From contig JACDQD010000107.1 of assembly GCA_019843655.1 (NCBI GenBank), positions 336,501-400,500 on the forward strand: DNA of 64,000 bases, in the 5' to 3' direction. This document shows positions 13,328 through 62,832 of this stretch, in pieces. Under the pieces are notes generated by a model. It was not told the origin of the DNA. It saw only the letters and a program-made list of their open reading frames with translations, and searched no databases. A program made the position numbers and the translations under genes. Every line of letters starts with the position of its first letter. Position 1 is the stretch's first letter. The DNA comes from Lethocerus indicus. Lineage: Eukaryota; Arthropoda; Insecta; Hemiptera; Belostomatidae.

Positions 13328-13582
13328 TTTAACGTACCTGTTCTGTGCTCTGCGAGGGGTTGGAATACCGTAGGTTAGTTCTTTTAGGTTTCGGCCGCTC
13401 GCCATCTTCAGTAGCGCTGCGTTAGCGCACTGTCGGCACTTTTGGACGTTTTTTCCTGGGGGCATCCTCTCACTGCCCGCTGTGTCACTTGTACAGTGTT
13501 AAAGCCGTCCAGTGCCAACACAGCGCTACTGAAGATGGCGAGCGGCCGAAACCGGAGGAGACAGAAACACGACAAACCTAAG
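13328..13582. mobile_element. HP foldback element, copy 1
   Basis: Two inverted arms meet near a GTCACTTGTACAGTG centre. The flanking 9-bp repeat GTTATAAGG (13319-13327 and 13583-13591) is a plausible target-site duplication. The right arm lost the ribozyme 3' side: GAAACCGG runs straight into AGGAG. Confidence 0.85.
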
Positions 13583-14134
13583 GTTATAAGGCTTGGAGAT
13601 TGATACAATAAATGGGCAAATGGGCCTTTCTTTCGCTGGTTAGTGCTCAGCGCCGTGCTCAGTAGCCGTTGGTGGCCGAAATTTTCGAACTCATTGAAAC
13701 CTTATTTAAATAACAACGAAAGACGATTAAACTAACCGTATCGTTTTAATTCTATCCGGTAATAATTTATGTTCTCATAATTTAACATAAATAAAGAAAC
13801 AGTTATTCAGTAGTGATATTAACTGCCGCCAATTAACTCCAGTGTAACGGTAGAGTTCACGCAGAGGCCCCAATAACCCGGTTAGTGCAATTGGGCCAAT
13901 TGCAGATTAAATAAAGAGTCGTAAAAAAACAATTAACCGGCATTAAATAATAACGGATAAATTCAGTCGGAACGTTCTCCGAGTTATTATTCTGTTCCGT
14001 AGAGATAATGGGGTGAACGAAATTGCTACTGAAGACGTTACTCCTCACGGTGAAAAGTCGACTGAATTGAGTCGGGAAAATTAATTTTCACGCCCTTTTG
14101 TCTCCGTCTCCGGCCGGACTGTTCGCCCTTGGAA

Positions 14135-14199
14135 AAACCCCAAGCCCCAAGCCCCAAGCCCCAAGCCCCAAGCCCCGAGCCCCAAGCCCCAAGCCCCAA
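14135..14199. repeat. (CCCCAAG)n heptamer tandem, about 9 units
   Basis: Near-perfect CCCCAAG units with one CCCCGAG. The minus strand is (CTTGGGG)n, with regularly spaced G4 runs able to form a G-quadruplex. Confidence 0.95.
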
Positions 14200-14703
14200 T
14201 GAGGTCAGGATGGACACGACAATGGCCACGGGTCGCTGTGGTGCAACCCTAAATCCCCGGGTATTGTAGAAGTTGCGACATTCGATTATGCACGATTATG
14301 CAGCCGAGAAACATTGGACGGTAACAAAAACGGACACCATTTTTTGTCACGAGAACGTCTAAAGAGCTGTTACGGCCGTCAAAAGAGCTATACGTCAATC
14401 TTCAGTCGTACGATCTGCCGGAGAAAGACAGTTTTTGTAGGGTCAATTGTTCCCTTTGCAGGTGTTAAAAGTTCACCACTTTATAAGCTCCCAGGGCTGG
14501 TTATCCCTTAGGTCAGATTGTACAAAAATATAACTAATATTTCTGCGGGTTTTCGCCCTTTCCTTCAGCAAACGGTAGATGCAAAGATGGCGTAACCCCA
14601 TCCAATGATCCCCACAATTGTTCTGGGATTCTTCTCGGGCATTCAGTACAGACAATACACAGATAATACACTGATATAATAGTGTCTGTGATATGGAAAA
14701 TTA

Positions 14704-15300
14704 TTGGGTTGACAACTGAGTAATTGGGGAATTCACCGCACGACAAGTGGCGTTGTTTGTACGTATCTTTAGTTGAATGGTAGTTGTAGGTTGACGTGAA
14801 ATTTCTTCAGTAGCGGTGTGTGTCAGTCACTGTTAACACTTTTTGGATGTTTGGATGTACTGTCAGTGACATGTGAAATAGTGACAGTGGGCAGTGAGAA
14901 TGCCCCCCAAAAAAAACATCCAAAGTGCTAACGGTGACAGTGACACAGCGCTACTGAAGATGGCGAGCGGCCGACAAACCGGTCTAGCAAAAGACCAAAC
15001 AGCAGCAAGAGAGGAGACAGAAACATTCCAACCCCTCGCAGACCACAAAACAGGTATATCAAATTAGAATGGTAGACGGTTTCGAATGCAAGTATAAGAT
15101 ATATTCGGCTTCTCTGCAATGTCCCTTCGATAATGGCCTTTATTCGGTCATCATCGACCTCCACAGGGGACGCTCTCCTCATCTTTTAATGAAAAATCCC
15201 CCAATCGGAATCAAAGAATCTTATCGAAGTACTTAAAAATATGTACAACGCCACTTGTCGGTGAATTACGCAATTACTTAGTTGTCATACTTTCATCGCT
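14704..15300 (-). mobile_element. Mariner-like remnant with transposase fragment, broken by an HP element
   Basis: Inverted termini GACAACTGAGTAATTGGGG (left) and the complement GACAACTAAGTAATTGCG (right, 15279-15296). Just inside the right end, 15182-15060 reads on the minus strand RRASPVEVDDDRIKAIIEG, which matches the N-terminal helix-turn-helix part of irritans-type mariner transposases. Most of the gene is missing, and HP copy 2 sits in the middle. Confidence 0.75.
14805..15057. mobile_element. HP foldback element, copy 2, nested in a mariner remnant
   Basis: The left arm is truncated; the right arm ends in the family terminus ACCACAAAACAGGTAT. The ribozyme core carries an insertion (GACAAA for GAAA). 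The element interrupts the mariner-like remnant 14704-15300. Confidence 0.85.
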
Positions 15301-15371
15301 ATTACAGGGGTTCCAGGGGGTCATTCAAAGTTGATGAATTTATAAAATTCTATATTTTCATTCCCTTCTAT

Positions 15372-15520
15372 AGGGTGTCCCCAAAATTAACGCAAACTTT
15401 CATTATTTTTGAAATATTGTTCAAGAACGAAAACACGTTGTTCTATCCATTTCTACTTACCTAAACTATCAGCTGTAAAATGGTTTTTTTTTAAACAGGG
15501 TTGCCAACTCTACTGCAAGA
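15372..15520 (+). mobile_element. Solo Tc1/mariner-like element piece
   Basis: Starts TAGGGTGTCCCCAAAATTAA, a typical terminus, and ends with the AAACTATCAGCTGTAAAATG / TTGCCAACTCTACTGC block. Confidence 0.6.
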
Positions 15521-16950: not shown

Positions 16951-17350
16951 GAGTCGCGGTTTGACTCAGCTGGTGACCTGTTATTTTAAAGTTCGGTTAA
17001 GGGGCAGTTCGTTAGATTGAAACCGATCGAAACCGAATTACAAAAAGCGGACAGTGACAGACGCACGTGGGAGAGAAGACCCCCCCCCGGAAATAAAGCT
17101 TTTAATGGGTCTCTGAAATGCGGGTAAAAATTCAATGGGTCGTTGTGCAACGTGCCATTTCCGTTACGCCGCACTTGGCTCCGTGCACCGTTAAGTGTGA
17201 CAGAAAAACGGTCGTTATATAAAAGCCGACTTTTCGCTAATTAATATCGGCCAGTACAAAACGTTATTGCGGTTAATAACTTTGTGTATGAAACGAAAAC
17301 CGGCTGGCTATGAAAAATAGAATAGGCAAGAAACAGGCAGGTAATATTTT

Positions 17351-17564
17351 GGGGTACCCGAAAGTAATCGACAATTTGATAAGATGTATTTTGGTCTTGA
17401 GGAGTTCCTCAAGAGGGGAATCGAAAATTTGCCGGAAAAGTGGCCGGAGAGTTGTCGATAATATCGGTGAATATATATAGTAGATTAATAATTAAAGTTT
17501 CTTTTTTAGCAAAATAAAATGAATTCCAAAGTCAAAATGTCGACTACTTTTGGGTGCCCCTAAT
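17351..17564 (+). mobile_element. M1 MITE (Tc1/mariner-like)
   Basis: TIR GGGGTACCCGAAAGTAATCG at the left and GACTACTTTTGGGTGCCCCT at the right; it contains the internal palindrome CTTGAGGAGTTCCTCAAG. The family has TIRs of about 26 bp, TA flanks and no coding capacity. Confidence 0.88.
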
Positions 17565-18126
17565 ACTTGGATCCACTACCAAACCCCTTATAGAATTTTT
17601 TTTTTTTTTTATATAAAATTTCAACAATAGGCACAACATTATTAAAAATACCATGATTCTTGTTACACGAGGAGACAGACGAACGCGATATCTACCGAAA
17701 ATAGTTCTGTCAAATAGTTATTTTCGAACAATCTTCAATCTCCATGACTGATCCAGAAAATCCTGAACTATAAAAAAAAAAAAAAAATCAGTCCCAATAG
17801 AAAGTTATAAATACAAGTTCAGCTTTTGAAATAGCGTGCAGTAAAAGGAAAACAGTTGATGACTATGGGGTAACGTGAAAGAATTTGAGAAATCCAACAC
17901 CCCCCTCCCCGCCCAGCGTTGAGGTAATTTAACCGAGATTATAATCTAGTGTCGCCGTTATGGTCTATAATATAATAATGGCGGCCGGAAGAACACCGGA
18001 GGGCCGAGCCGGAGTGAAAAAGAACAGTTTCGTTAAGAAAAAAGAAAAACTGTTGCCGGTGAACGTGACCGAGAATAAAGGGATATCTCGGTGTCGGTCG
18101 CCGCCGGATTATGACCGGGATTGTAA

Positions 18127-19725: not shown

Positions 19726-20157
19726 ACATTTCCGGCGTGAACAAGAAAGAAAGAAAGAAAGTCCTTCATGTTATATCCTCCGACGAACAGGAGAGAACGA
19801 TCACTGCGCGATCAGTGAAAGTGATAGTGAATCGACGACAGTGAGATTCACGGCCAAACGCACACACACACACACACACATACATGCGCTGTCCCGTAAA
19901 TGGCGCTGACACACGTTGTGAAATAAGTGCACGCCTTTCGAGTGGAGCGTGAAAGTTCTTCTCTCGTCGGGAGCGATGATAAAGGGAAGATTTCTAGAAG
20001 GGGAGTGGGGAATATTTTCCCCTGCGTTGTGGCCACACTGGGAATCGGACACGCGTTTTCTTTCCTTTATATTACGCACTCCACTCACTTTTAATTTACG
20101 ATATCGTAAATCGTAGGATTTTTTGTCCTATTCGCTTGGCAACTAAACAATTGGGAT

Positions 20158-20517
20158 ACCGTAGATTTCGTATATTTCTGTTTCCTCTCGCCGGTTCGGT
20201 CTTCTTTACGGCCGCTCGCCATCTTCAGTAGCGGTGTTAGTCACTTTCGGCAGTTAGGATTTTTTTTTTTTTTTTTTGCATCTTCACACTGCACTGTCAC
20301 CGCCACTTGTACAGTGTAATAAACCCCTCGCAGACCACAAGTGGCAGAGACGGTGCAGTGTGAGGATGCACCAAAAAAAAATCCGAACTGCCAAAGTGAC
20401 TCTATCACCACTACTGAAGATGGCGAGAGTCCGAAACCAAACCGGCGGGAGGAGACAGAAACACGCGAAATCTACGTTGTTCCAACCCCTGGCAGACCAC
20501 AAAACAGGTATTCTAAG
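20158..20517. mobile_element. HP foldback element, copy 3, with 15-bp TSD
   Basis: Both arms are present and the right end is the AAAACAGGTAT terminus. The exact 15-bp repeat CTAAACAATTGGGAT flanks it (20143-20157 and 20518-20532). The right-arm ribozyme is decayed. Confidence 0.9.
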
Positions 20518-20658
20518 CTAAACAATTGGGATTCTTCCCATCCGGAATTCTGAAAAATAGAATAAAATTATTACAGAAAATTCGGCGTTATTTTTACACT
20601 AACCTCCTTATAGCCTAAACTAGACCGGGGTGCATAAACTACAGCTTTACCTATATTT

Positions 20659-20886
20659 AACATACCTCTTTTGTGGTCTGCCAGGGGTTGGAATACCGTA
20701 GGTTTCTGCTGTCTCCTCTCGCCGGTTTGGTCTTTCGTTAGACCGGTTTCGGCCGCTCGCCATCTTCAGTAGCGCTGTGTTAGTCACTGTCGGCACTTTG
20801 GATGTTTTTCACGGGGGTACCCTAGAAACCGGTTTAGCTAAAGACCAAACCGGCGAGAGGAGACAGAAAGACCGCAAATCTACGGT
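20659..20886. mobile_element. HP foldback element, copy 4
   Basis: Starts AACATACCTCTTTTGTGG and ends AAATCTACGGT. The flanks TTTACCTATATTT and TTTACCCATATTT (12 of 13 match) are a likely TSD. The left arm holds a nearly intact minus-strand ribozyme motif (about 20737-20773, one stem I mismatch). Confidence 0.88.
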
Positions 20887-21355
20887 TTTACCCATATTTG
20901 TTTTTCTTCGTTTAAAAAGTTACAATTAACGACTGCTGAGTCGTCAATAGAAGAAGTGACTGGTCACAGTTGCAGGTACCTCATCCATAACTTATCGACG
21001 ACTACGGGGAGGAACTAACAGCGTTTATTGACCTGTCTCACCTGTCGACCGTGAAATTGCTCCTGTACGGATTCACAGCCGGCGTTGTGAGTTCAAAACT
21101 TTCAAATTCACGGGGCCGTGTCAAAAAAGCCGCTACCGGGCCGGGCCGTCTCCGGCTGTGGAAAACGTGAACGTAAAATTCTGGGAGATCAGGGGATAAT
21201 ACCGTCATTTTCAAGGGAAGACGAACCGAAAGTCCGATGACGTTTTCCGCATTGTCAATTCCTGCCAAGAAAGAAAAACGTAAACGAATTGCCAAAACTG
21301 ATAGATACACGCGGGCAGGAAAGGCAATGGGGTGGGCACAAGGAGAATGAACATA

Positions 21356-21561
21356 TTAGGTGTACCCAAAAGTAACAATTTGATAAGATATATTTTGGTC
21401 TTCAGGAGTGTTCTTCAAGAGGGGAATCGAAAATATGCCGGAAAAGCGGCCGGAGAGTTGTCGATAATATCGGTGAATATATAGTAGATTAAAGTTTCTT
21501 TTTTAGCGAAATAAAATGAATTCCAAAGTCGAAATGTCGATTACTTTTGGCTACCCCCAAT
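21356..21561 (+). mobile_element. M1 MITE
   Basis: TTAGGTGTACCCAAAAGTAA to TTACTTTTGGCTACCCCCAA. Confidence 0.9.
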
Positions 21562-21683
21562 AATAATGAACGAGAAAGTAATTATTCCGGCTGAGCGATG
21601 ATATTACGTAGAATCTATCCCGATCAAAAACAAAAAAAATATGACATTCACGAAACACCAAAACAAGGTACATGTGCCGTACA

Positions 21684-21866: not shown

Positions 21867-21939
21867 TTTATATAATTTCAAACTAGATGTAAATCTTATA
21901 TTACATACATTCATTAATATATTAATATAAATATTAATA

Positions 21940-22292
21940 GTTTAACATACCTGTTTTGTGGTCCGCGAGGGGTTGGAATACTATAGATTTGTCGCGTTTC
22001 TCTCTCTTCTCGCCGGTTTGGTCTCTTTTGATAGACCGGTTTCGGCCGCTCGCCATCTTCAGTAGCGCTGTGTTAGTAGTCACTTTCGGCAGTTTGGATG
22101 TTTTTCGTGGGCATCCTCAGTGCACTGCACTGTCACCGCCACTTGTACAGTGTAATAAACCCCGCGCAGTCCACAAGTGACAGTGACAGTGCAGTGACTA
22201 ACACAGCGCTACTGAAGATGGCGAGCGGCCGAAATCGGTCTAGCAGAAAAGACCAAACCAGCGAGAGGAGACAGAAACACAACAAATCTACG
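21940..22292. mobile_element. HP foldback element, copy 6, with exact 13-bp TSD
   Basis: The element runs from GTTTAACATACCTG to CAAATCTACG. The exact 13-bp repeat ATAAATATTAATA flanks it (21927-21939 and 22293-22305), fixing both ends. A (TA)n tract has grown at the right target site. Confidence 0.93.
22208..22244 (+). ncRNA. Hammerhead ribozyme motif
   Basis: As at 28318. Stem III is ATC/GGT, which keeps pairing through a U-G wobble; stem I GCTA/TAGC is intact. Confidence 0.55.
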
Positions 22293-22297
22293 ATAAA

Positions 22298-22301
<4 letters not shown>

Positions 22302-22350
<49 letters not shown>
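22302..22350. repeat. (TA)n microsatellite at an HP target site
   Basis: Begins inside the right TSD of HP copy 6, followed by a short (CT)n at 22379-22401. Confidence 0.95.
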
Positions 22351-22354: not shown

Positions 22355-23118
22355 TAGAAGAATTTATAATGGACCAGTCTCTCTCTCTCTCTTTCTCTCT
22401 CCTGATAAAATTATTAACTATTAACAAATAACTGGAAACAATTAAGTATATTGTAAATGAAAGGCCATTTTTGGCGTGCAGTTTGAGTTGTGCTGGCCCT
22501 GGGATTAACCCTACAGCTAGTTGTGCAACTATTGCGCCATGTCCGTTCCACGTCGTCCTATTTTTTAAGCTTTCAAGTTTTTTCCGCTGCAAATGTCGAA
22601 AGCGAGAAGCGCGAATCTGCGCGAACACCTTGAACCCTTATGAGATGAACTCGCCTTTCCCCCGGCGATAAATTGGTGAATCATATAGCCTATTGAGCAA
22701 TCCGATCGAGCGGAGATAGAAACGCGATGTTCAGTGAATGTTTCGCGCATTCACCGGAGAACGTTGATATTTACCGTTGATAGTTACCAAAAACGTTTTT
22801 TTACCCCGAATAATCGAGTCCAATGAAGGGGTTTTTTTCTACAGTTTTTTTCCACCCTCCTCCGAAGATACGAAGCTTTGGGGAGTTCATCTGCCAGTGT
22901 TGATTTGCCGCAATCGCCTGCAAGAACTATAAAATCCTATTCCTCAAATCTAAGAATTGTCACTTCGTAAGTCCTGCAAAGTTCGGTTCAAAGATTTGAG
23001 CTGAAGAAGAAAGTTCCTGGAGGTTCCATGACGGGCTGAACTGCATTCGTCCCCTAACGATAACGACAACAGTTTAACTTTGTTCGAACCTTTATTGTAA
23101 ATATATATATATATATAT

Positions 23119-23372
23119 CGTAGATTTGTTGTGTTTCTGTCCCATCTCTCGCCGGTTTGGTCTTTTGCTGGATCGGTTTCGGCCGCTCGCCATCTTCAGT
23201 AGCGCTGTGTTAGTCAGTGTTGGCACTTTGGATGTTTTTTTTGGCTGTGACAGTGCAAGTGTCGGAAAAACGTCCAAAGTGCCAATAGTGACTGAAACCG
23301 GTAGTGAAGACGGCGAGCGGCCGAAACCGGTCTGGCTAAAGGCGAAACCGGCGAGAGGAGGCGAAAGAACGA
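23119..23372. mobile_element. HP foldback element, copy 7
   Basis: The left arm abuts a (TA)n tract; the right arm has a ribozyme-like core with GTGAAGACGGC (core C changed to G). The right flank is part of an inverted duplication with 27.9-28.2 kb. Confidence 0.83.
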
Positions 23373-23535
23373 TAAGACCAGAATAATGAACTGAAGAAAA
23401 TATCTATCACTAATAATAAATCGGGTGCAGGCGTTTGAAATTATACCTTATGCCCGAGAACGTTCAACAGCCGAATGTTTGTATGGGGCGCGAAAAAATG
23501 CGCAAAAAAAAAATGAAAAACAGAATGAAAAACGA
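23371..23535 (+). repeat. Inverted duplication, left copy
   Basis: About 160 bp, including GTGCAGGCGTTTGAAATTAT and CGAGAACGTTCAACAGCCGA; it reappears reverse-complemented at 27915-28074 with few mismatches. Confidence 0.92.
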
Positions 23536-27850: not shown

Positions 27851-27914
27851 ATACTTAAGCCGGTTAACACAAACCAACATCCCCCCAAAACTGTTGACAG
27901 TACAAGTGACAGTT

Positions 27915-28074: not shown

Positions 28075-28105
28075 TTGTAACTTGGACTAGAAAACAAGGA
28101 TATAT

Positions 28106-28400
28106 ATCTTAGGTTTCACGTTCTTTCGCCTCCTCTCGCCGGTTTCGCCTTTAGCTAGACCGGTTTCGGCCGCTCGCCGTCTTCACTACCGGTTTCAGTC
28201 ACTATTGGCACTTTGGACGTTTTTCGGGCATCCTCAGTGCACTTGCACTGTCACTAGTACAGTGCAGTGGGGATACCCCCAAAAAACATCCAAAGTGCCA
28301 AAAGTAACTAACACAGCGCTACTGAAGATGGCGAGCGGCCGAAACCGGTCTAGCAAAAGACCAAACCGGCGAGAGGAGACGGAATCACAAGAAAACTACA
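28106..28400. mobile_element. HP foldback element, copy 8
   Basis: Both arms are present with a short centre (CACTAGTACAGTG). The right arm carries a consensus-like hammerhead motif (28318-28354); the left-arm core has C-to-G and is probably dead. Confidence 0.9.
28318..28354 (+). ncRNA. Hammerhead ribozyme motif (HP copy 8, right arm)
   Basis: Stem I GCTA/TAGC (28318-28321, 28351-28354); core CTGAAGA (28322-28328), which fits CUGANGA; one extra T; stem II GGC/GCC with loop GAGCG; GAA (28341-28343); stem III ACC/GGT with no loop; cleavage predicted after C28350 (GTC). Because stem III has no loop, activity would need a dimer, as described for other minimal hammerheads. The extra base next to stem II is non-canonical. 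Confidence 0.6.
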
Positions 28401-29910
28401 ATAATATTGCAATATGCCAACTGAATAGCAGGTTTTATGTCGGTTTATCCCGAAACAGATTGGATTCTCCGGATTGCCCGGTTTCTTCAATAGAGGGTCG
28501 TTAACGCGTTCGGATAGTGATAGAGATAATAGTCAGGTCGCGGAAGTCGGAGTCGGTGGTCCGACAAATGGGTGTTCGGAAGGTCGGCCGTTTTACGGGA
28601 GTACAGCTAATTAACGTCTAACATCTTGGGCAAATATACGACAGACGGCAAAGCTTCATCAAGGACTGAAAAGCAAGCAAAAAGGAAAGCAAACAAAAAA
28701 CGGCTCTCACGGTTATAATATGTCAATACTGTGAACGGACGCAGGAGTTGATGACAGCCGATTACGCTTTTTAAACACTGAAATATTAAGCAATACTTAC
28801 AATTATTCCAAAGATTTCCAAACGTTGGATAATTTTAAAAGATGGCCTTCGCAGCACGTAGCACGTCCCTCGCAGACCGGCACTTCCTCCCGAGATAACA
28901 GTGTTGGTTTTTACGATTACCAAACTTAATTATGGCTCTTGCGTCTCGATTTGGTCTTTCACCAGACAGATTTCCGCCCTCCGTTGTGGGCGCTCGTGGG
29001 TGTAGACTGTAGACGGGTTTTGCTTTTAAACCGGTCTGTCAATTCAGCTTTTTGCTCCCCCTCCCCCCAAACTGCCCAACTGATTGTGTCTAAAATTAAG
29101 CTCCGAACATATCGGCAAAAACGGGTTAAAAAGTGCTTTTTCAGCGCTTAATATATTAACTGATTAATGTATTGGTGGTAATGATTACTTCGATGGGTAT
29201 TTCCATCACAGAATTGTTACTGATTAGGATATTTAATGTCGACAGAGCCCGAAGAGAAACCTAGATATTTCGACAGCGAGGCAGAATAAAATAATTTCAT
29301 TAGGGTTATACAGGCAGTCTATACACAGTTTCTAGTCCTATACAACAGTGTTTAACACTATTTTCTCCTGTTTTCCAGTTGTATATCTCAACACGGAGAT
29401 GTACGACCGGCGCCGTGATAGGTTTCAAGATCTTACTACCGAACGGTCTTTGAAGGTCTTTTTTTCCATTTAACACGAATCCGTCGTTAACCCCGAGGTG
29501 GACACTGAGAAGTCCGTTTCCGACAGTCGGAAGGAAGTACCATACACGGTATGGGGATGACCTCGGGGACTCTCTCACTCTTTCTCACGTCTTCGACATT
29601 GGTGACCAGAAGGTTGCCGGCCTATTTAGTATTTGGAACGCAAATGGGAGATACGCCCGAGGGTCGGACTGGGCCCCGGGGTAAGTAATTAAAAATTATA
29701 CCGAAATCCGCTACCAAGGTTATACCATTATAACAGGCGGTCAATCGAAGAAAACAAACAGCGCCGCATGAATACGCGCTGTGAATTCATCATTTAACGT
29801 CCCATTGTTAAACGGTGCTTATTTTAAGTCGGCGATACAATTTTTTTTAGAAATTAATACTCTAAATAGTTGAATACGAACCGGTTAACGCTCAATCATC
29901 AAAACGTCTA
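28401..29910. other. Gene-free stretch
   Basis: Contains a 90-codon minus-strand open frame (29578-29306) with no recognisable family or splice context. No repeats matched elsewhere. Confidence 0.45.
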
Positions 29911-32090: not shown

Positions 32091-32331
32091 TCTTGTGTTT
32101 CTCAGACCGTACTTTAGTACACGGACAATTAATACGCGAATTTTTATGAATCCGTGGGGGAGAATCAGTGCGGGAATATTAGTGTCGTTGCACTATTAAC
32201 CAGTTCCACACGTTTGGCATTTCGACCGTGACTGCACGCCAACAGGAAATTAGTGCGACCTCTCTTCAAAAACAGTGAGCTGGTGTTTTTTGAAGAGCGG
32301 AATCAAGTTCAAAAAAGTTCAGGTTAAAATT

Positions 32332-32510
32332 GATACCGTAGATTTCGTGTGTTTGCTTCCTCCTCTCGCTGGTTTCGGCCGCTCGCCATCTTCAGTAGCG
32401 GTGTTAGTCACTTTTGGCACTTTGGATGTTATACTGGTCATCCTCACTAGCACTGTCACTGTCATTGTCATTTGTAGTATGAAGACAAACAACATTCCCA
32501 AAGACACAAG

Positions 32511-32576
<66 letters not shown>

Positions 32577-32672
32577 GACAAACAGACAACCACCACAGTA
32601 CAGAGGAGACAGAAACACACGAAATCCAACCCCTACGGTATTCCAACCCCTCGCAGACCACATTAATTAAAA
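32332..32672. mobile_element. HP foldback element with (TA)n loop
   Basis: The left arm with ribozyme core runs from CCGTAGATTTCGTG. The loop holds a (TA)n tract of about 58 bp (32516-32573). The right end is TCGCAGACCACATT. GTTAAAATT repeats flank it (32323-32331, 32676-32684), possibly the TSD. Confidence 0.87.
32516..32573. repeat. (TA)n microsatellite in an HP loop
   Basis: About 58 bp, flanked by the conserved loop sequences AAGAACAA and TTCGACAAACAGAC. Confidence 0.97.
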
Positions 32673-35403: not shown

Positions 35404-35648
35404 CCGTAGATTTGTTGTATTTCTGTCTCCTCTCTCGACGGTTCGGTCTTTTGCTAAAACCGGTTTCGGCCGCTCGCCCCATCTTCAGTAGCGGTGTTAG
35501 TCACTAGTTTGGATGTACACACCGCTACTGATGATGGCGAGCGGCCGAAACCGGTCTAGCAAAAGACCAAACCGGCGAGAGAGGAGAAAGAAACACAACA
35601 AATCTACGGTATTCCAACCCCTCGCAGACCACAAAACAAGTATGTTAA
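35404..35648. mobile_element. HP foldback element with exact 14-bp TSD
   Basis: Starts CCGTAGATTTGTTG and ends ACAAGTATGTTAA. The exact 14-bp repeat ACTATTATTAAATA flanks it (35390-35403, 35649-35662). The right arm carries the best hammerhead core in the window (CTGATGA). Confidence 0.95.
35524..35560 (+). ncRNA. Hammerhead ribozyme motif with consensus CUGAUGA core
   Basis: Same fold as at 28318, but the core is the canonical CTGATGA (35528-35534). Stem I GCTA/TAGC, stem II GGC/GCC, GAA, stem III ACC/GGT, predicted cleavage after C35556. Confidence 0.65.
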
Positions 35649-35797: not shown

Positions 35798-35932
35798 GAA
35801 AAAACTGAAGTGTAGTAACATTTTGGCGGAAATAGAATATAAATAGATTAATAAAAAAATATACACCTTCGTTAGCCGTTCAACTCCCGCTGACCGAGGT
35901 CCATCCCACAATCTTTAAGCGATCCATTAGAT

Positions 35933-36240
35933 TAATATACCTGTTTTGTGGTCTCCGAGGGGTTGGAATATACCGTAGGTTCGTGATGTTTCTGTCCTCC
36001 TCTCGCCGGTTTGGTCTTTTGCTAGACCGGTTTGTCGGCCGCTCGCCATCTTCAGTAGCGCTGTGTGTCAGTCACTGTTAAGCACTTTGGATGTTCTCTT
36101 GGGCATCCTCACTGCTGCACTGTCACTTTCACATGTACTGTAGTGTTTGTCAGTATGTCAGTCGTTTATATATATTATATGTGTTCTGTTATTGTTATTG
36201 GGGGTTGTGTTTGTCTTCGGATTTTGTGGTGGTTGGGCCG
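35933..36240 (+). mobile_element. HP left arm plus loop (right arm missing)
   Basis: Runs from AATATACCTGTTTTGTGG through the ribozyme core (GT inserted before CGGCC) into a loop with TATATATATTATATG and GGGGGTTGTGTTTGTCTTC. Confidence 0.82.
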
Positions 36241-36539: not shown

Positions 36540-36881
36540 GTAAGTTTTCTCGTCTCTCAGTCGCGGCATTTCCCTTTTCCACTTTTCCCCCCTTCACAAC
36601 TCCCTCAACTCCCGTTTCGCACGAGCTTTTCAAAACAGAATAAGGGCCCAAAGTAATTGCGGATTTGACCGACAGTATTTGTAGACCTGTTATTATACCG
36701 CAGATTTCGTGTGTTTCTGTCTCCTCTCGCCGGTTTGGTCTCATCTTTTGCTAGACCTGTTTCGGCCGCTCGCCGTCTTCAGTAGCGCTGTGTTAGTAAT
36801 GTCTTTTGACACTTTGGATGTTTTCTGGGCATCCTCACTGCACTGTCACTGTCACTTGTACTGCGTACTTGTCAGTTTGTC

Positions 36882-36883
<2 letters not shown>

Positions 36884-36942
<59 letters not shown>
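36884..36942. repeat. (TA)n microsatellite in an HP loop
   Basis: About 59 bp between the loop motif CAGTTTGTCGTG and the LTR-like insertion. Confidence 0.97.
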
Positions 36943-36944
<2 letters not shown>

Positions 36945-36945
36945 T

Positions 36946-37228
36946 TAAGAGAGGGCTAGCAGCCCAAAAGGTATTAGAAAGATAAACATAAACAGTAAGA
37001 GAAGGCTAGGAGCCCAAAAGGAATTGGAAAGATAAACATAAACAACTATAGATTTGGCAAAGCCCTTTGTCAGAACAACCTTTATATATGAGGAGCCGGG
37101 CAGAGCCCGGCAGTCGAGTCTTGTCTTTGATTGAGTGCGTGTGCTTGTAGCTATTATTTTTCTGTGCAATAAAATTTATCATTTTTTAAAAACTCTCTTT
37201 TCGACCGGGATAGTCTAACTTATATATA
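36946..37228 (+). mobile_element. Probable solo LTR
   Basis: The sequence has the order of an LTR: a TATA-like TTTATATATGAGGAG, a start-region hairpin (GCCGGGCAGAGCCCGGC), then about 80 bp later GCAATAAAATTTATC, a polyadenylation signal. A 45-bp direct repeat (GGCTAGCAGCCCAAAAGG and GGCTAGGAGCCCAAAAGG) lies at its start. The ends form a short inverted pair (AAGTTA../..TAACTT) within TATATA flanks. No internal coding region is adjacent, so it is solo. Confidence 0.55.
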
Positions 37229-37339
37229 CTGAGTATCTTGTTATTGTGTTATTGACAAACACCACAGTACAATTGATAGTGACAGTGCAGTGAGGATGAC
37301 CTGTAAGACATCCAAAGTGCCAACAGTGACTGAAACAGC

Positions 37340-37376
37340 GCTACTGAAGATGGCGAGCGGCCGAAACCGGTCTGGC
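37340..37376 (+). ncRNA. Hammerhead ribozyme motif
   Basis: As at 30682, with the TGGC stem I variant and an intact core. Confidence 0.55.
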
Positions 37377-37419
37377 AAAAGACCAAACCAGCGAGAGGAG
37401 ACTAAAACACCACAATCCT

Positions 37420-37422
<3 letters not shown>

Positions 37423-37468
<46 letters not shown>
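37423..37468. repeat. (TA)n microsatellite at an HP end
   Basis: Starts immediately after the right HP terminus CCTAAGG. Other (TA)n tracts: 16289-16318, 23100-23120, 45820-45852, 49342-49372, 58347-58391, 58676-58710. Confidence 0.97.
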
Positions 37469-42336: not shown

Positions 42337-42630
42337 ATATACCTGTTTTTAATGGTCTGCTGTTTCTGTCTCCTCTCTCACTGGTTTGGTCTTTTGCCAG
42401 ACCGGTTTCGGCCGCCGCTCGCCATCTTCAGTAGCGCTGTGTCAGTCACTGTCGGCACTTACAGGATGTTCGGCTGTACTGTCAGTGACATGTGAAAAAG
42501 TGACAGTGCGCCCAAAAAACGTCCAAAGTGCTAACACAGCGCTACTGAAGATGGCGAGCAGCCGAAACCGGTCTGGCAAAAGACCAAACCAGTGAGAGAG
42601 GAGACAGAAACATCACGAACCTACAATATC
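42337..42630. mobile_element. HP foldback element
   Basis: Starts AATATACCTGTTTTTAATGG. The left-arm ribozyme has a 3-bp insertion (GCCGCCGCTC); the right-arm motif at 42541-42577 is intact except for one loop change. Confidence 0.87.
42541..42577 (+). ncRNA. Hammerhead ribozyme motif
   Basis: As at 28318 with loop GAGCA and stem I variant TGGC; all paired positions are kept. Confidence 0.55.
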
Positions 42631-48900: not shown

Positions 48901-48913
48901 GCCAATATATATA

Positions 48914-50610: not shown

Positions 50611-50634
50611 TGTGGAATATGGGATCGATTCAAG

Positions 50635-54400: not shown

Positions 54401-54590
54401 TTTTTAGGCCAAAAAATGGCATTTTTAGACGCAAAATTGGCCCCAAAATGCGGTTTTTAGGCCCAAAAATGGCATTTTTAGACGCAAAATTGAAAATTTT
54501 TAAAAAATGGCATTTTAGACGCACCCTAAAATGCCGTTTTAGGCCAAAATCGCAAAATTAAAATGCAAAATATTTATTTTAGGGCAAAAT
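51430..54590 (+). repeat. SatA, homogenised ~48-53-bp array (about 60 units)
   Basis: The unit is the 32-mer (GACGCAAAATTGGCCCAAAA..) plus about 20 bp (GGCCAAAAAATGGCATTTTTA), measured as 52-53 bp between units at 51741, 51794, 51846 and 51898. The part around 52.9-53.6 kb is scrambled. Confidence 0.95.
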
Positions 54591-54599
54591 TGGCTCAAA

Positions 54600-56235
54600 A
54601 ATGGGGGCAATATGGGATCGATCTGCGAAAATGAAAATAAATTTTCGATTTTCAACCCGCCGTTTTCAGGGGCAAAACTCACTTTGGGACACTTGTGGGT
54701 GGAATATGGGATCGATCTGCGAAAATTTTCGAAAACCTAAATTTTCGATTTTCAACCCGCCGTTTCAGGGGCAAGTGTAACTCACTTTGGGACACTTGTG
54801 GGTGGAATATGGGATCGATCTGGAAAATTTTCGAAAACCTAAATTTTCGATTTTCAACCCGCCGTTTCAGGGGCAAGTGTAACTCACTTTGGGACACTTG
54901 TGGGTGGAATATGGGATCGATCTGCGAAAATTTTCGAAAACCTAAATTTTCGATTTTCAACCCGCCGTTTCAGGGGCAAGTGTAACTCACTTTGGGACAC
55001 TTGTGGGTGGAATATGGGATCGATCTGGGAAAATTTTCGAAAAACCTAAATTTTCGATTTTCAACCCGCCGTTTCAGGGGCAAGTGTAACTCACTTTGGG
55101 ACACTTGTGGGTGGAATATGGGATCGATCTGGGAAAATTTTCGAAAAACCTAAATTTTCGATTTTCAACCCGCCGTTTCAGGGGCAAGTGTAACTCACTT
55201 TGGGACACTTGTGGGTGGAATATGGGATCGATCTGGGAAAATTTTCGAAAATCTAAATTTTCGATTTTCAACCCGCCGTTTCAGGGGCAAGTGTAACTCA
55301 CTTTGGGACACTTGTGGGTGGAATATGGGATCGATCTGGGAAAATTTTCGAAAAACCTAAATTTTCGATTTTCAACCCGCCGTTTCAGGGGCAAGTGTAA
55401 CTCACTTTGGGACACTTGTGGGTGGAATATGGGATCGATCTGAGAAAATTTTCGAAAAACCTAAATTTTCGATTTTCAACCCGTCGTTTCAGGGGCAAGT
55501 GTAACTCACTTTGGGACACTTGTGGGTGGAATATGGGATCGATCTGGGAAAATTTTCGAAAAACCTAAATTTTCGATTTTCAACCCGTCGTTTCAGGGGC
55601 AAGTGTAACTCACTTTGGGACACTTGTGGGTGGAATATGGGATCGATCTGGGAAAATTTTCGAAAAACCTAAATTTTCGATTTTCAACCCGTCGTTTCAG
55701 GGGCAAGTGTAACTCACTTTGGGACACTTGTGGGTGGAATATGGGATCGATCTGGGAAAATTTTCGAAAAACCTAAATTTTCGATTTTCAACCCGTCGTT
55801 TCAGGGGCAAGTGTAACTCACTTTGGGACACTTGTGGGTGGAATATGGGATCGATCTGGGAAAATTTTCGAAAAACCTAAATTTTCGATTTTCAACCCGT
55901 CGTTTCAGGGGCAAGTGTAACTCACTTTGGGACACTTGTGGGTGGAATATGGGATCGATCTGGGAAAATTTTCGAAAAACCTAAATTTTCGATTTTCAAC
56001 CCGTCGTTTCAGGGGCAAGTGTAACTCACTTTGGGACACTTGTGGGTGGAATATGGGATCGATCTGGGAAAATTTTCGAAAAACCTAAATTTTCGATTTT
56101 CATTTCAGGGGCAAGTGTAACTCACTTTGGGACACTTTGCGATCTGGGAAAATTTTCGAAAACCTAAATTTTCGATTTTCAAAAAAACTTTTGGGACACT
56201 TGCGATCTGGGAAAATTTTCGAAAAACCTAAATTT
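54600..56235 (+). repeat. SatB, 103-104-bp tandem array (~14 full and 2-3 deleted units)
   Basis: TGGAATATGGGATCGATC recurs with starts near 54701, 54804, 54906, 55009, 55113, 55217 and 55320. Each unit includes AACTCACTTTGGGACACTTG and TTTTCGATTTTCAACCCG. Early units read CCGCCG, later ones CCGTCG. The last units, after 56100, are deleted. Confidence 0.97.
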
Positions 56236-56239
56236 TTTT

Positions 56240-57615
56240 TTTCGCCTAAAACGGCATTTTAATTTTGCCACTAAAATCATTTTTAGCTGATTTTGCTCCT
56301 AAAACCGCATTTTTAAGCTGGCCACTTTTCCGTGTAAAAACCGCATTTGGGCCGATTTTGCGCCTAAGAACCGAATTTTTGGGGCAATTTGGCACCTAAA
56401 AACCCCATTTTTGGCCAAAAAACAGCATTTTAGAGCCGATTATGTGCCCAAAAAGACAATTTCGGGCCCATTTTGCGCCTAAGAAACATATTTTTTAGCC
56501 GATTTCGCGCCTAAAAACAGCCTTTTGAAGTCCATTTTGCGCCTAAAAACCGCATTTTTGTGCCGAGTTTGCGCTTAAAAACCACCTTTTTGGGCCAAGA
56601 AACCAAATTTCAGAGCCGTCTTTGTACCATAAACGGTATTTCTGAGCCAATTTTGCACCTATGTCCGCACCTTGGTCCTAAAAACATTGTTTTAGAGCAA
56701 ATTTTACTGCATTTTTGGTCCGATTTTGCGTCTAAAAATGCCAATTTCTCGCCTAAAAACCCCATTTTTGAGCGTAAAAACCCCATTTTTTGGCCGATTT
56801 TGTGCCTAAATACCTCATTTTTGACCCGATGTTTCATTTTGCGTCTAAAAATGTCGTTTTTGGGCCTAAAAACCGCATTTTGGACCAATTTTGCGTCTAA
56901 AAATGCCATTTTTGGGCCTAAAAACCTCATTTTAGGGCCAATTTTGCGTCTAAAAATGCTATTTTTTGGCCTAAAAACCGCATTTTCGGGCCAATTTTGC
57001 GTCTAAAAATGCCATTTTTGGGCCTAAAAACCGCATTTTCGGGCCAATTTTGCGTCTAAAAATGCCATATTTTGGCCTAAAAACCGCATTTTAGGGCCAA
57101 TTTTGCGTCTAAAAATGCCATTTTTGGGCCTAAAAACCTCATTTTAGGGCCAATTTTGCGTCTAAAAATGCCATTTTTGGGCCTAAAAACCGCATTTTCG
57201 GGCCAATTTTGCGTCTAAAAATGCCATATTTTAGCCTAAAATCCGCATTTTGGGCCAATTTTGCGTCTAAAAATGCCATATTTTAGCCTAAAAACCGCAT
57301 TTTGGGCCAATTTTGCGTCTAAAAATGCCATTTTTGGGCCTGAAAACCGCTTTTTAGAGCTAATTTTGCGCTTAAAAATGGCATTTTCGGGCCGATTTTG
57401 TGCCTTAAAATTGCTTTTTTGGGTCGATATTGTGCCTAAAAACCACATTTTTGGGCCAAAAAACCGAATTTAGAGCCGATTTCGTGACTAAACGGCTTTT
57501 TTTGGCCGATTTTGTGCCTGAAAACCCCGTTTTTGAGCCGATTTTTCACCTAAATCCGCATTTTTGGGCCCAAAAACAGCGTTTTGGAGCCAATTTTGCG
57601 CCCAAAAACGGTATC
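56240..57615 (-). repeat. SatA in inverted polarity
   Basis: Units are the reverse complement of the left array (TTTTGCGTCTAAAAATGCC, CCTAAAAACCGCATTTT). The core, about 56860-57340, is homogeneous; the edges are degenerate. Confidence 0.95.
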
Positions 57616-58712: not shown

Positions 58713-59343
58713 TGACAGCATCAGGGTAACGACAGTTTTTAATGTTTTATTGTCACAAATGTAAAATAAAATTAGCGCCAGTCGCACTATTAACCAGGTC
58801 TTATTTTTTAGTCGCCGCAGATTAGGCGGGGGGGGTAGTTTTGTTGATCACGAGGTCTGCACTGTATACACTTTTTCACTTTATGCAGCAAGCGGGGAAA
58901 AAAACCTCCCGTCGTAAGGACCGAACTCAAGGAAAAAACAATACTACTGAAGACCGGACGCGAAAGGAGATTCAGCGAAACAAAAAAAGTTTCCAACGCC
59001 TTTCGCGAATCTTTCCGATCGAAAATCGTTGTGCAACATCCGTGACACAATTCCACCGTAATTACAGCCACTCTTCAAGACAAATACACGGCCGGCAGTC
59101 CTTCGGACGATGATGGAATCACCGACTGTGGTAAAGGACCGTGACACGAGAAGATTAAAGGACACACAGAGAGATGGCCGAACCAAGATATGACCAATAA
59201 TGAAACCCTCCGCCGTGTTTACCGAAACTGTTTTTTTTTTAATTTCGCAACCGATCGTGAAGATTTTCAGCCACTACAAACGACAAACATTAGGTTGGGC
59301 AACAGTTTTGAAATTAGGAAGGTAATTGGGCAGAAAAAATTTT

Positions 59344-59735
59344 TTCGGCCTGCGAGGGGTTGGAATGAGTGTTTCTGACTCCTCTCGCTGGTTTCGGCCG
59401 CTCGCCATCTTCAGTAGCGGTGTCGGTCACTTCGGCACTGAACAGTACAGGTGACTGCGACAGTGCAGTGAGTATGCCCCCAAAAAAATATCCGAAGTTA
59501 CTGACGCCGCTACAGTGAAGATGGCGAGCGGCCGAAACCCGTCTGTCTTCTCTCGCCAGTTTGGTCTTTGCCCGGTTTCGGCCGCTCGCCATCAGTTGTC
59601 GGTCACTTCGGCACTTGCTGTGACAGTGCAGTGAGGATGCCCTAAAAAAGACATCCGAAGTTACTGTACAGTGAAGATGGCGAGCGAGAGTTTGGTCTTT
59701 TGCTAGACCGGTTTCGGCTGCTCGCCATCTTCAGA
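59344..59735. mobile_element. Two adjoining HP foldback elements
   Basis: 59344-59555 has the terminus CTGCGAGGGGTTGGAATG and two arms. 59556-59735 has a further left arm, right arm and left arm. Ribozyme cores recur four or five times; the last one (about 59699-59735) is nearly complete on the minus strand. Confidence 0.82.
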
Positions 59736-59985: not shown

Positions 59986-60867
59986 GCGGGCTCAGCCAAC
60001 AAACTCATTAAATATTCAAACTGTAGACATCGATTCCGATAGAAAGCCCTTCGAACAGCCCTTAATGCTGCCCGGATATGTTTTTTTCCTCAAAAATAGG
60101 ACGAAGGATTCAATCCGGGACGAAAGGTCGACGAACCCTGTCATCAGGGGGCGGCTATCGGTGCTGAACTCTCGGGCGAATGCCGACCGAATAATAAATA
60201 TATATTCTGACGACTCCTTGGAAATTCGACCCGGAGGTGAACAAAAAACAAACAGACAACAATACGGTCTCTAGTTATGACAAAATTGGCGGTGTTTGTT
60301 TTCCGAGGCGGTAGTTCTGTGGGAACGCCGGGTATGCGCGAGTGGAATTGTCTCGTATTTTTCCGCCCGACAGATATTCTACGGACAAATAGTGGTCCAA
60401 TTCATATTGTTTAAAGTTTTCCCAGCTGTTTCCCCGCCCCTACCCCCAACCCGCGCATTTCCACGCACGTCCCAGTTTCTAAACTTTCTTGTGTGGGAAA
60501 CTCACCGAGTCGGTAATCTCACCTGAGCGGGCGTAGACCTTTTGAAGACGAGCCGGATTTTTTTAAACGGAAAGTTTACAATATATATTCATTTCTCTAT
60601 TTGAAAACGTAGAATAAAGTTGTGACTACACTATACAGGAATTTTCCTGATATTTCCCAATCGATTAAACGAGTACAACTCGTAGAACTCCAGACGACCA
60701 CGGGATACTGTTTAGTTTTCAATTGGGTATTTTATTCACTAATAATCGACAAATTCCGTAGATTTTTTTGTGTTTCTGTACAAGTGACAGTGACAGTGCA
60801 GTGAGGATGCCCGAAAAACATCCAAACCGCCAACACTGGTGACTGTAAACGATATGTTTGGACATTT

Positions 60868-60904
60868 GCTAGACCGGTTTCGGCCGCTCGCCGTCTTCAG
60901 TAGC
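60868..60904 (-). ncRNA. Hammerhead ribozyme motif, minus strand
   Basis: On the minus strand: GCTA, CTGAAGA, C in place of the extra T, GGC-GAGCG-GCC, GAA, ACCGGT, C, TAGC. All pairings are intact, and it faces the plus-strand motif at 60998. Confidence 0.55.
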
Positions 60905-60997
60905 GGTGTGTCAGTCACCTTGGATGTTTTTTTGGCATCCTCCTTTTTGGCCTGTACAGTTGTACAAGTGACCCAAAAAAACGTCCAAAGTGACTGC

Positions 60998-61034
60998 GCT
61001 ACTGAAGATGGCGAGCGGCCGAAACCGGTCTAGC
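60998..61034 (+). ncRNA. Hammerhead ribozyme motif
   Basis: Identical in layout to 28318. The same element carries the opposite-strand copy at 60868, so transcripts of either strand would contain one ribozyme and one antisense copy. Confidence 0.58.
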
Positions 61035-61122
61035 GAAAGAACTGAAACTCAACAAATCTACGGTATTCCATCCAACCCTCGCAGACCACAAAACAGGCAT
61101 GTTAAACTATCAACAAATTCCG

Positions 61123-62687
61123 TTCTTGCTACTTGTGCAGATGAGTGTAAATTTTTGGCCACAAGCCGTAATTGAAAGAATATTCATTATAACTGATAAA
61201 TAGGAGGTCATAAATTTAAGATTTTAGGTCGGAAATTCGTTCAAAACGCTAGTGTACTCTTGTGGAGGGCAGGAATTGATAATGAAAGGGGAAAGGGGGC
61301 AGAACGGTTACTCGAGTCGAAGGAGAATCGGGAAGAGGGAAAGTAATCGGAAATCGGGAAAGAGGAAGCGGCGTGTCTAATAGGCGATTACTTTCGCGGT
61401 AATCGTTTTCGTTTCGCCACAGGGTCCTCTCAAACGACGATTACTATAGGTGAGCCGCCCCCACCTAGTGACAGTAACTCATCTCTGAATCTTTGTTCGG
61501 CCGGAACCCCTCAGAAAGTCTTGTGGAAATGCCGCTACCGGCGGTGGCGAGGAGCCGAAACCGAACTATTATGATTGAATCGCGCGGCGAAACGCCAACT
61601 ATAGGAAAGGAACGAAAATAGACCGCGATTAATTCGATTCTCTGTACGTCCTGTCGCCCGGAGGAATTGAGGAAGCGTTTGCGAAAACACGGCCGTATTT
61701 ATTTATCGTAGAGACTTCGTAGAAGCCGTCTACAAACGTCTCTCGCTCTACATCGTATGAATAATTGAACGTTTGGGGAAATTTGCATTCTGTAGCCGTT
61801 TTCGCCCCCACCCCACCCCCAAAAGTATCAATTAACCGGGGACGGAGGGATTGGGAGAATTTCGAGAGAAAACATGAACATATTTAAAAAAAAAAAATTC
61901 CAATAATTTATAAGTCGGCGGTCGTTTTCCATTTCGAAAAACATTTTGCGTTTCGGCACCCCACCCCAAAATTGACCAATAGATGTTTTATGACTAACTT
62001 GAAGACTAGTGAAACGTATAAATAAATTCGATATTAATATCTGCACTTTGGATAGTCAATCTGATATTAACAGTTCAGAAATAATTTCTGTGGGGGGCGG
62101 CCATTTGGAAATTTCGGAAACGTTTCGGTCGATAACACAGACAATTCGTTCGCAAAAGAACATTTGCAGTCTCGCGATTTACGAAATGAGGACGTATTCT
62201 ATTTAAATTTTTGCTTACTTACACTTTGACTTACATTTTAATTTGACGCCGGTCTAAAAATACGACGAATAAGGAGCATTAATTTTTTTGTTTCCCCCCG
62301 ACCTAATTGAAACATCTACTCGACAACGAGTAGACTTAGAGCGGTCTTTTCACAAAGGTCGGCGGCGGTGCCGACAATACAGAGTTTCTCGAAACAAGGA
62401 GGACAATAAGAAAAATTAAAAGGGCGATGAAAGCACTCGAAGCGCTTTAAATATAGAATTGTCTCCGTCTTATCGAGGTCACGATGTCGTTTCACGTGGG
62501 CGTATCGATTGTCGAGGGAAGTTTAACGAATTTAACAGTCTTGGAGTAGGGTGCGGAGAACTGAAACTGAATTAAATACAGAAAGTTTCACTTATAAAGC
62601 AATTGCCGTCAGGGAGACAGATTAGGCCTGCACACACAGGTTACCGGCTTGGGAGTACAGTTTGTAGGCCGATTGTTAAAAAATAAT
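61123..62687. other. Gene-free stretch
   Basis: A minus-strand 60-codon frame at 61811-61629 looks protein-like but has no splice or homology support. A degraded ribozyme-like core (GGTGGCGAGGAGCCGAAACCG) lies near 61543. Confidence 0.45.
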
Positions 62688-62832
62688 AAGTGCGGCCGAG
62701 TTTCGGCCGCTCGCCGTCTTCAGTAGCGTCACCCTCGGCACATCGGACGCTTTGGCGGCATCCCGTCATGTTTGATTTGGCCCCCCCAAAAGAATCCAAA
62801 GCACCAAAGTGACTGAAACCGCTACTGAAAAA
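62688..62832. mobile_element. HP foldback element, short
   Basis: The left arm has GTTTCGGCCGCTCGCCGTC; the centre CGGCATCCCGTCATG..; the right arm AATCCAAAGCACCAAAGTG is truncated after ACCGCTACTGAA. Confidence 0.8.

Follow-up and report, generated by a model that had tools for sequence, protein, structure and literature searches.

Inverted hammerhead-bearing repeats in a 64-kb stretch of the Lethocerus indicus genome, very probably pseudo-LTRs of Penelope-like elements

Introduction

Minimal type I hammerhead ribozymes of Penelope-like elements (PLEs) and Terminons were reportedly described by Cervera and de la Pena in 2014 and by Lunse in 2017. We report here the analysis of a stretch of 64,000 nucleotides from the hemipteran Lethocerus indicus (GenBank assembly GCA_019843655.1, contig JACDQD010000107.1, positions 336,501 to 400,500 of the forward strand), called the window hereafter, in which a short dispersed repeat carries a hammerhead-like motif in its arms. 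A previous examination of the letters alone (the sequence-only reading) had taken this repeat for an abundant foldback element with hammerheads in both arms. The best explanation, which we consider highly probable, is that the arms are pseudo-long terminal repeats (pseudo-LTRs, or pLTRs) of PLEs, and that the motif is a PLE-type minimal hammerhead whose cutting is probably occasional and dispensable for insertion. All coordinates are those of the whole window, position 1 being its first letter.

In PLEs and Terminons, minimal type I hammerheads devoid of helix III are described as dispersed in animal genomes and located in pseudo-LTRs (PMC7761336). Amphibian type I hammerheads with no clear helix III require constructs in dimeric form, and it is suggested that those of PLEs may cleave as dimers; their in vivo activity and role are called a mystery by the same source (PMC7761336).

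The PLE of Anolis carolinensis, PAc, carries a motif written CUGAGG-AUG-CC..GGGC-GAAACGUC (PMC11167929). In the account given there, the open reading frame (ORF) begins at stem II of the hammerhead, C3 and G8 being placed before the start codon, and the cut occurs 26 nt after the AUG. An AC-rich stem loop situated 111-118 nt inside the ORF is where reverse transcription starts; two start sites have been observed, and the interval that separates them makes up the 30-40 bp tail. The PAc hammerhead cuts in vitro, the protein being required, no RNA-seq ends are reported at the cut, and mutants of C3 or G8 insert normally in vitro (PMC11167929).

In the PLEs of Adineta vaga, pLTRs are found in inverted, head-to-head arrangement; one of the two may bear a 31-bp tail, and target site duplications (TSDs) are 8-10 bp long (PMC3846280). 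The authors proposed self-priming for the inverted pLTR, and sequences between pLTRs are mobilised in trans; the hammerhead is not mentioned in the main text of that paper (PMC3846280).

Results

A repeated arm with a hammerhead core

The pattern CTGANGANGGC, with at most one mismatch, was found 47 times in the window, compared to 5.5 expected. An iterative nhmmer search using one arm as seed also gave 47 arm matches, from 9742 to 62728, including partial ones that stop short of the motif; the previous estimate of about 40 arm copies is therefore confirmed. A pattern describing the whole motif, drawn post hoc from the earlier finding, gave 13 matches in the window and none in 60 Markov-1 simulations (64 kb, one strand each). 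Over the whole genome, the exact core pattern was matched 11,209 times (5559 + 5650) in 426.8 Mb, and the reversed control was never matched.

The motif has the layout CUGAAG-AUG-GC..GCC-GAAACCGGUC. The hammerhead core, C3 U4 G5 A6 N7 G8 A9, G12 A13 A14, the A15.1-U16.1 pair and H17, is present in the consensus and in 21 of the 47 arms, which have 12/12 core positions intact and no core insertion in a pairwise census. Stem II has 3 bp and is placed one base off A9, stem I has 4 bp, and stem III, the palindrome ACCGGU, has no loop; a stem I of at least 3 bp together with the 3-bp stem II was found in 18 of the 21 core-intact arms. The sequence-only reading was right in stating that the motif matches hammerhead positions, and the layout is that of the published PLE hammerhead of Anolis. 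It was also right in reporting a single canonical CTGATGA, which is found only at 35528-35538 among the 47 pattern matches.

Two features had been held against a functional hammerhead, namely one extra base beside stem II and the lack of a loop in stem III. Both are present. The PAc sequence can be read in the same way, with the A of its AUG as A9, the U as an extra base beside stem II, and a loopless palindromic stem III, ACGU. The base in question belongs to an AUG, of which it is the U, and PAc shows the same arrangement, so that the main objection is largely removed; the loopless stem III is confirmed, and is shared with PAc. An extra nucleotide in the hammerhead core has a precedent in viroids.

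The GTC site is absent from several arms, such as 13419-, 13521+, 20406+, 32403- and 59422- (the sign giving the strand). In 20406+, 32403- and 59422-, the gap is compatible with a deletion between two AAACC repeats.

Some local arrangements of arms were also recorded. At 23300-23336 (plus strand) and 28154-28190 (minus strand), both arms read GGTAGTG instead of GCTACTG (core change C3G), and they are tied through a long inverted duplication of 498 columns at 79% (23111-23530 and 27913-28407), which takes in two PLE pairs and their common outer flank. Two same-strand pairs of neighbouring arms are near-tandem, one on the minus strand (33859-34065) and one on the plus strand (30678-30949); each has one or both motifs damaged. 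Outside the window, one random 10-kb stretch (L437) contains 20 arm matches, some of which form tight inverted pairs (4319-5104) or represent a duplicated arm (9421-9676).

The arms are linked to Penelope-like reverse transcriptase

The genome was searched, at E up to 0.01, with a hand-written PLE reverse transcriptase (RT) probe. This gave 58 places, the best at 1.2e-17. In both RT-like loci examined, L441 and L442, the arm is joined to a PLE RT ORF. In L441, an ORF with an RVT_1 match (40.8 bits, for a cut-off of 29.6) shares its frame with the arm end and tail, into which it continues (3.6e-12). In L442, the RT ORF scores 20 bits with RVT_1, below the cut-off, and is followed by a GIYKITC..VYIGQTGR stretch, found by eye in one frame, then by a stop, the rest of the frame to its end, the 3' untranslated region (UTR) and an arm. 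This arm is on the same strand as the RT ORF (90 bits, 2.6e-28) and its motif is intact. Within the window, 35967-36227 is 88.9% identical to L442:1635-1876 over 261 columns, spanning the ORF end into the pseudo-LTR, and segment 36195-36224, read by hand, keeps nine codons of the PLE ORF and the stop (KSEDKHNPQ stop). Based on the linkage in L441 and L442, and on this window match across the ORF end, we conclude that the arms are most likely PLE pseudo-LTRs. This assignment rests on the hand-written RT probe and on the element anatomy.

RT-like places were found to repeat with identical scores on contig pairs C8/C123, C4/C144 and C9/C100, as if these were alternative haplotype contigs.

Two-armed elements, tails and target site duplications

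A complete arm consists of the PLE 3' UTR, then CTGAAG-ATG, then a stretch readable from the ATG, which by analogy with PAc would be the ORF start codon. Counted from the A of the ATG, the outward end of complete arms is at about 77 nt when tailless and about 114 nt when tailed, and the predicted cut is at 23 nt. A tailed arm runs beyond CTACGGTAT for another ~37 nt and ends with GTATGTTAAA. At most one such arm is found per two-armed element, and none of the paired two-armed elements of the window has a tail on both arms. Tails are bimodal: among the 34 matches reaching that point, 14 score 36-70 and 20 score 8-16; for comparison, stretches taken at random from the window have their 99% point at 25. 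In two-armed elements the motif points outward from the centre, the left arm being on the minus strand and the right arm on the plus strand. The elements and motif copies of the window are listed below.

13328..13582, minus strand: E13, inverted pseudo-LTR pair, tail on the left, GTC site absent in both arms; TSD CCTTATAAC at 13319-13327 and 13583-13591
14804..15065, plus strand: E15, PLE copy with a tailed arm and a 5'-truncated inverted arm; AC insertion in GAA, common to E36
20158..20517, plus strand: E20a, inverted pseudo-LTR pair, right arm alone tailed, cleavage site gone in both arms; perfect 15-bp TSD CTAAACAATTGGGAT at 20143-20157 and 20518-20532
20659..20886, minus strand: E20b, inverted pair; TSD AAATAT[A/G]GGTAAA, one mismatch, at 20646-20658 and 20887-20899
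21940..22292, minus strand: E22, inverted pair; TSD TATTAATATTTAT at 21927-21939 and 22293-22305, adjoining an AT repeat and so of weaker evidence
23113..23378, no strand assigned: E23, inverted pair, tail not found, core change C3G in the right arm
28104..28402, no strand assigned: E28, inverted pair, tail not found, left arm C3G, right arm intact
28318..28354, plus strand: consensus motif copy, given as an example by the sequence-only reading; core intact, ATG at 28328-28330, predicted cut after C28350
29912..30326, minus strand: E30, inverted pair, left tail, both motifs intact, no clear TSD
32331..32665, plus strand: E32, inverted pair, tail on the right arm, left arm without GTC site
35404..35648, plus strand: E35, inverted pair, right tail; TSD ACTATTATTAAATA at 35390-35403 and 35649-35662
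35524..35560, plus strand: canonical CTGATGA motif copy, in the tailed arm of E35
35932..36227, minus strand: E36, single-arm PLE copy, with the PLE ORF end, 3' UTR, pseudo-LTR motif with the AC core insertion, and tail
36695..37426, no strand assigned: E36b, long inverted pair, about 545 bp between the arms, no tail
42359..42629, minus strand: E42, inverted pair, degraded left tail (by eye), TSD not found
59336..59546, minus strand: E59, inverted pair, left tail, tailed arm without GTC site
60759..61108, plus strand: E60, inverted pair, right tail, both arms core-intact; TSD ATC[A/G]ACAAATTCCG, one mismatch, at 60745-60758 and 61109-61122

TSDs of 9-15 bp were found in 6 of the 8 elements tested, each with p of at most 0.007 compared to random window pairs. 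Five of these 6 TSDs are within 3 nt of the element ends, two have one mismatch, and that of E20a is a perfect 15-mer. Their AT fraction ranges from 0.57 to 1.0 and is above that of the window (0.594) in five cases out of six. For E22, the script chose a match a few bases off, inside the AT repeat, and the flush 13-mer was placed afterwards. TSDs of variable length and a one-sided tail are retroelement features, which argues against a DNA foldback element; as the arm is moreover joined to RT ORFs, the foldback label has to be replaced by that of PLE pseudo-LTR. Judged from their sequence, the repeats are short, mostly 5'-truncated PLE insertions, many of them made of two head-to-head pseudo-LTRs.

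Within the 11 pairs compared, arms are 82-94% alike, and two arms taken from one element are closer to each other than left and right arms paired at random (permutation p 0.0005). The data fit a snap-back origin of the inversion partly, and only as a trend.

Conservation of the core

Substitution rates were determined on the 29 of the 47 window arms that span at least 60 columns. Equal rates in the core and in the flanking arm had been proposed as an outcome that would speak against a hammerhead. They were not observed, substitutions with respect to the consensus being 9/323 in the core and 198/1416 in the flank. The difference held without CpG sites (Mann-Whitney p = 0.0007), and also in comparison with the near flank, whose mean is 8.0% (p = 0.009). 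Core changes are about five times rarer than those of the flank, and about three times rarer than those of the near flank. A second sample, composed of 19 random 10-kb genome stretches, contained 39 arm matches, and the 23 long ones were used for rates: 6/269 positions were substituted in the core, 59/509 in the near flank, 119/563 in the far flank and 42/294 in the tail. Copies are related by ancestry, so that their substitutions cannot be counted as independent.

The U of the AUG behaves differently from the conserved core bases around it. It is a T in 24 and a C in 12 of 36 arms of the random stretches (AUG becoming ACG in these 12), and it differs in 4 of 27 window arms. Changes at third codon positions are not in excess in the window (25/423, versus 34/425 and 29/424), and the data suggest that the constraint is not on the encoded peptide.

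Folding, cleavage and mobility

The RNAs of five whole elements were folded, with predicted energies of -130 to -235 kcal/mol, and in these folds the motif is buried in the arm-arm duplex. For the motif by itself, the drawn monomer hammerhead has -5.2 kcal/mol compared to -9.3 for the best monomer fold, and the drawn dimer -20.3 compared to -26.6 for the unconstrained co-fold. Because two-armed elements are inverted, each transcript contains a single sense copy of the motif. None of the window arms begins or stops at the predicted cut, located between alignment columns 37 and 38. Arm 59594- has an internal gap that starts at the predicted cut, and in the random sample two L437 matches, apparently one duplicated arm, stop one column past it.

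A 2-nt AC insertion in GAA is common to 14946+ and 36063-, which are at different sites. One core-disrupted lineage thus appears to have moved, and on this one case, together with the normal insertion of the PAc mutants, the motif looks dispensable for jumping. The absence of GTC from both arms of E20a was also considered as a proof of GTC-free mobility, and was dropped, as the two deletions differ and may postdate insertion.

The proposal that the elements make self-cleaving RNA did not find support here, given that the motif is buried in the folds, the arms are inverted, same-strand neighbours are damaged, and a core-disrupted copy apparently moved. Self-cleavage is possible for these elements, and is probably not required.

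Evidence weighing against a PLE-type hammerhead

A number of results weigh against the interpretation of the arms as PLE pseudo-LTRs bearing a hammerhead. Concerning the PLE assignment, the link between arm and RT was examined at 2 of the 58 RT-like places. The GIY-YIG family PF01541 gave 0 matches genome-wide, and Pfam made no call on the GIY..YIG stretch of L442. In no copy seen does the ATG frame run into the RT domain: it meets a stop in L442, sits behind the RT in L441, and is variously frameshifted in the window copies. Two of the 8 elements tested, E30 and E42, have no TSD, and an AT repeat holds the TSD of E22. Partner arms are reciprocal best matches in just 1 of 11 pairs, and one-way best matches in two more.

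Concerning the hammerhead itself, the score of the motif region against PAc is modest, since 30 shuffles out of 3000 do as well. Core conservation could be due to an RNA signal used by the PLE protein instead of catalysis, the contrast with the near flank in the window being ~2.8% versus 8.0%. Covariation is absent: among the 27 of 47 arms with nearly the whole motif (24 distinct), no pair of any stem was changed on both sides. Cells were paired in 88.8% of cases compared to a column-shuffle mean of 89.3%, with a near-invariant stem II (one G-U), a stem I paired in 80.7% of cells and a stem III in 87.5%, so that the previous statement that variants tend to keep pairing is not upheld. Finally, Rfam detected no hammerhead, either in the whole window at gathering or at E up to 10, or in 56-nt slices.

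The search with Rfam hammerhead models, which the sequence-only reading had proposed as a check, proved to be a test of little power. In viral contigs, 121 matches to CTGANGATGGC..GCCGAAAC, with an extra T between A9 and stem II, were found in 117 loci (L002-L116 holding look-alikes, for instance L004:2904-2954, minus strand); this set was gathered using letters of the window motif. Full three-stem hammerheads were recognised by a pairing test in 58 of the 121 (47 distinct), versus 1/121 when stem I was displaced. When A, C or G replaced the extra T, 4/36 were three-stem (displaced, 0), and with no insert the ratio was 109 of 133 among the matches listed (displaced, 5). An alignment of 37 of the 47 distinct look-alikes showed strong covariation of stems I and III, with 159 two-sided changed cells, 99.8% of them paired; as the aligned rows were picked for pairing, this percentage is inflated, whereas the variety of pairs is not. 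Sixteen viral loci, of which 15 contain a three-stem look-alike, gave no Rfam hammerhead at gathering, and neither did the L004 slice at E up to 10. As Rfam missed the extra-U look-alikes in the loci tested, its silence on the window is weak evidence.

A covariance model built on the 37 viral look-alikes (R1) had 28 window matches at E up to 10, the best at 2e-06, with scores of up to 27 bits. These scores were dropped as evidence, since chance letter matches in 100 of 119 bacterial loci score 11-30 bits; the one three-stem case of the bacterial set reached 56.9 bits. The R1 score of the window adds nothing, being carried by the search letters.

Other sequence in the window

The window has 121 ORFs of at least 85 aa; 20 of them were scanned with Pfam, and the matches above cut-off were to phospholipase A2 and Swi5 alone. 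Both are exon-like, the former at 11609-11929 (minus strand, 36 bits) and the latter at 6378-6641 (minus strand, 40.1 bits). A second dispersed repeat, of ~225 bp and with copies ~79-91% alike, is present at 17341-17568, 21353-21562, 24030-24237, 25608-25828, 34793-35016, 47478-47692 and 48911-49142. A tandem array with several open frames, encoding for instance SFVRSF repeats, occupies 44628-45350, and self-similar repeats are dense in 49900-57600 (130 of 255 self-BLAST rows of at least 150 nt). Frames at 62856-63234 (minus strand) resemble, by a motif, the end of a mariner-type transposase; no Pfam match above cut-off was found in 62856-63146.

Discussion

The motif is real and of a known kind, most probably a PLE-type minimal hammerhead, and to that extent the sequence-only reading was partly right. 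Independently of catalysis, the motif may be maintained as a binding or priming signal for the PLE protein, or as a DNA signal, that merely resembles a hammerhead. We regard this as a real possibility, without favouring it. The template of the PAc protein is reported to need the initial 172 nt of the ORF (PMC11167929), motif copies with a missing GTC or an inserted core persist, no covariation is seen, and in the five folded elements the motif is masked by the pairing of the inverted repeats, all of which would suit a signal. However, PAc inserts with templates 5'-truncated to +20, so that the CTGAAG upstream of the ATG is unneeded there, yet it is conserved here; the PAc counterpart of the motif cuts in vitro with the protein (PMC11167929). 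A signal also fits poorly with the drift of the U of the AUG amid conserved core bases.

A second alternative is an active dimeric ribozyme, in which the palindrome ACCGGU would bring two RNAs together for mutual cutting, with 5'-OH RNAs and possibly circles as products, as for retrozymes. The palindromic stem III, to be compared with the ACGU of PAc, would allow it, the dimers needed by amphibian hammerheads poor in helix III, and perhaps by those of PLEs (PMC7761336), offer a parallel, and 18 of the 47 arms have the core together with stems I and II. We nevertheless find it rather unlikely: the drawn hammerheads are less stable than the competing folds, both as dimer and as monomer, the arms of one element are inverted, and no window arm terminates at the predicted cut. 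As for a DNA foldback transposon or miniature inverted-repeat transposable element (MITE) whose terminal inverted repeats happen to hold a hammerhead look-alike, the many copies and the likeness of the inverted arms recall one, but TSDs of 9-15 bp, a tail on at most one arm and the link of the arms to an RT ORF make it hardly credible.

Under the explanation by PLE pseudo-LTRs, and as extrapolated from the Anolis and Adineta elements, the PLE protein would bind the RNA near the ORF start and nick AT-rich DNA. Reverse transcription would begin at either of two internal sites, giving a tailed or a tailless end, and self-priming would give the inverted second pLTR. With A9 being the A of the AUG, the ACCGGU stem III would close fully only between two RNA copies. 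Cutting, if any, would take place 23 nt into the presumed ORF and would part the start codon from the message; it would probably be occasional, assisted by the protein, and unneeded for insertion.

A bolder proposal, which we put forward as quite doubtful, is that the pseudo-LTR swarm has its core kept by selection on the RNA while the AUG drifts, that the ribozyme is a switch triggered by the protein, and that the miniature copies carry the fold needed by the PLE protein. If true, cutting would sever the AUG from the ORF in the autonomous element, and the mRNA would become a template.

What appeared to be a ribozyme in a DNA foldback element is thereby recast as what would be a clear PLE signature. 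A genome with more than 11,000 exact matches to the core pattern bears on the role of conserved PLE hammerheads, and the contrast of core conservation with AUG drift can be tested using nothing but sequence. More generally, when a hammerhead has an extra U beside stem II, the silence of Rfam says little against it.

Comparison with known systems

The sequence-only reading had named both Penelope-like retroelements and retrozymes as relatives. The metazoan non-LTR retrozymes, as presented in PMC7229834, are likewise small and non-autonomous, with a type I hammerhead and TSDs of more than 4 bp. They differ in consisting of 150-450 bp units repeated in tandem, with canonical helices and contacts between loops, whereas the arms here are inverted and helix III has no loop. 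A metazoan retrozyme was ruled out on these grounds, the paired arms being inverted rather than in direct tandem, and the PLE hammerheads are the right kin. No description of such miniature inverted hammerhead pairs turned up in the PMC full-text collection, as judged mainly from titles and the openings of abstracts.

The PLE and Terminon hammerheads are in tandem, whereas the two-armed copies of the window are inverted. In this respect, the window elements resemble the Penelope elements of Adineta vaga (PMC3846280), with which they share inverted head-to-head pLTRs, a tail at one pLTR and short TSDs. The copies described in that source mostly have an ORF, whereas those of the window are mostly short.

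PAc shares with the window elements a hammerhead at the junction of pLTR and ORF (presumed here), C3 and G8 placed before what would be the start codon, the U of the AUG beside stem II, and the GUC. The loopless palindromic stem III, a 30-40 bp tail, presumably set by two internal start sites of reverse transcription here as in PAc, and the AT-rich targets are likewise common to both. The two differ in stem II, which has 3 bp and a 5-nt loop here and is a longer stem-loop in PAc, in the position of the cut, which is at nt 23 here and at nt 29 in PAc when counted from the A of the AUG, and in the sequence of stem III, ACCGGU versus ACGU. Finally, the pLTRs often come as inverted pairs here, whereas PAc forms tandem full elements.

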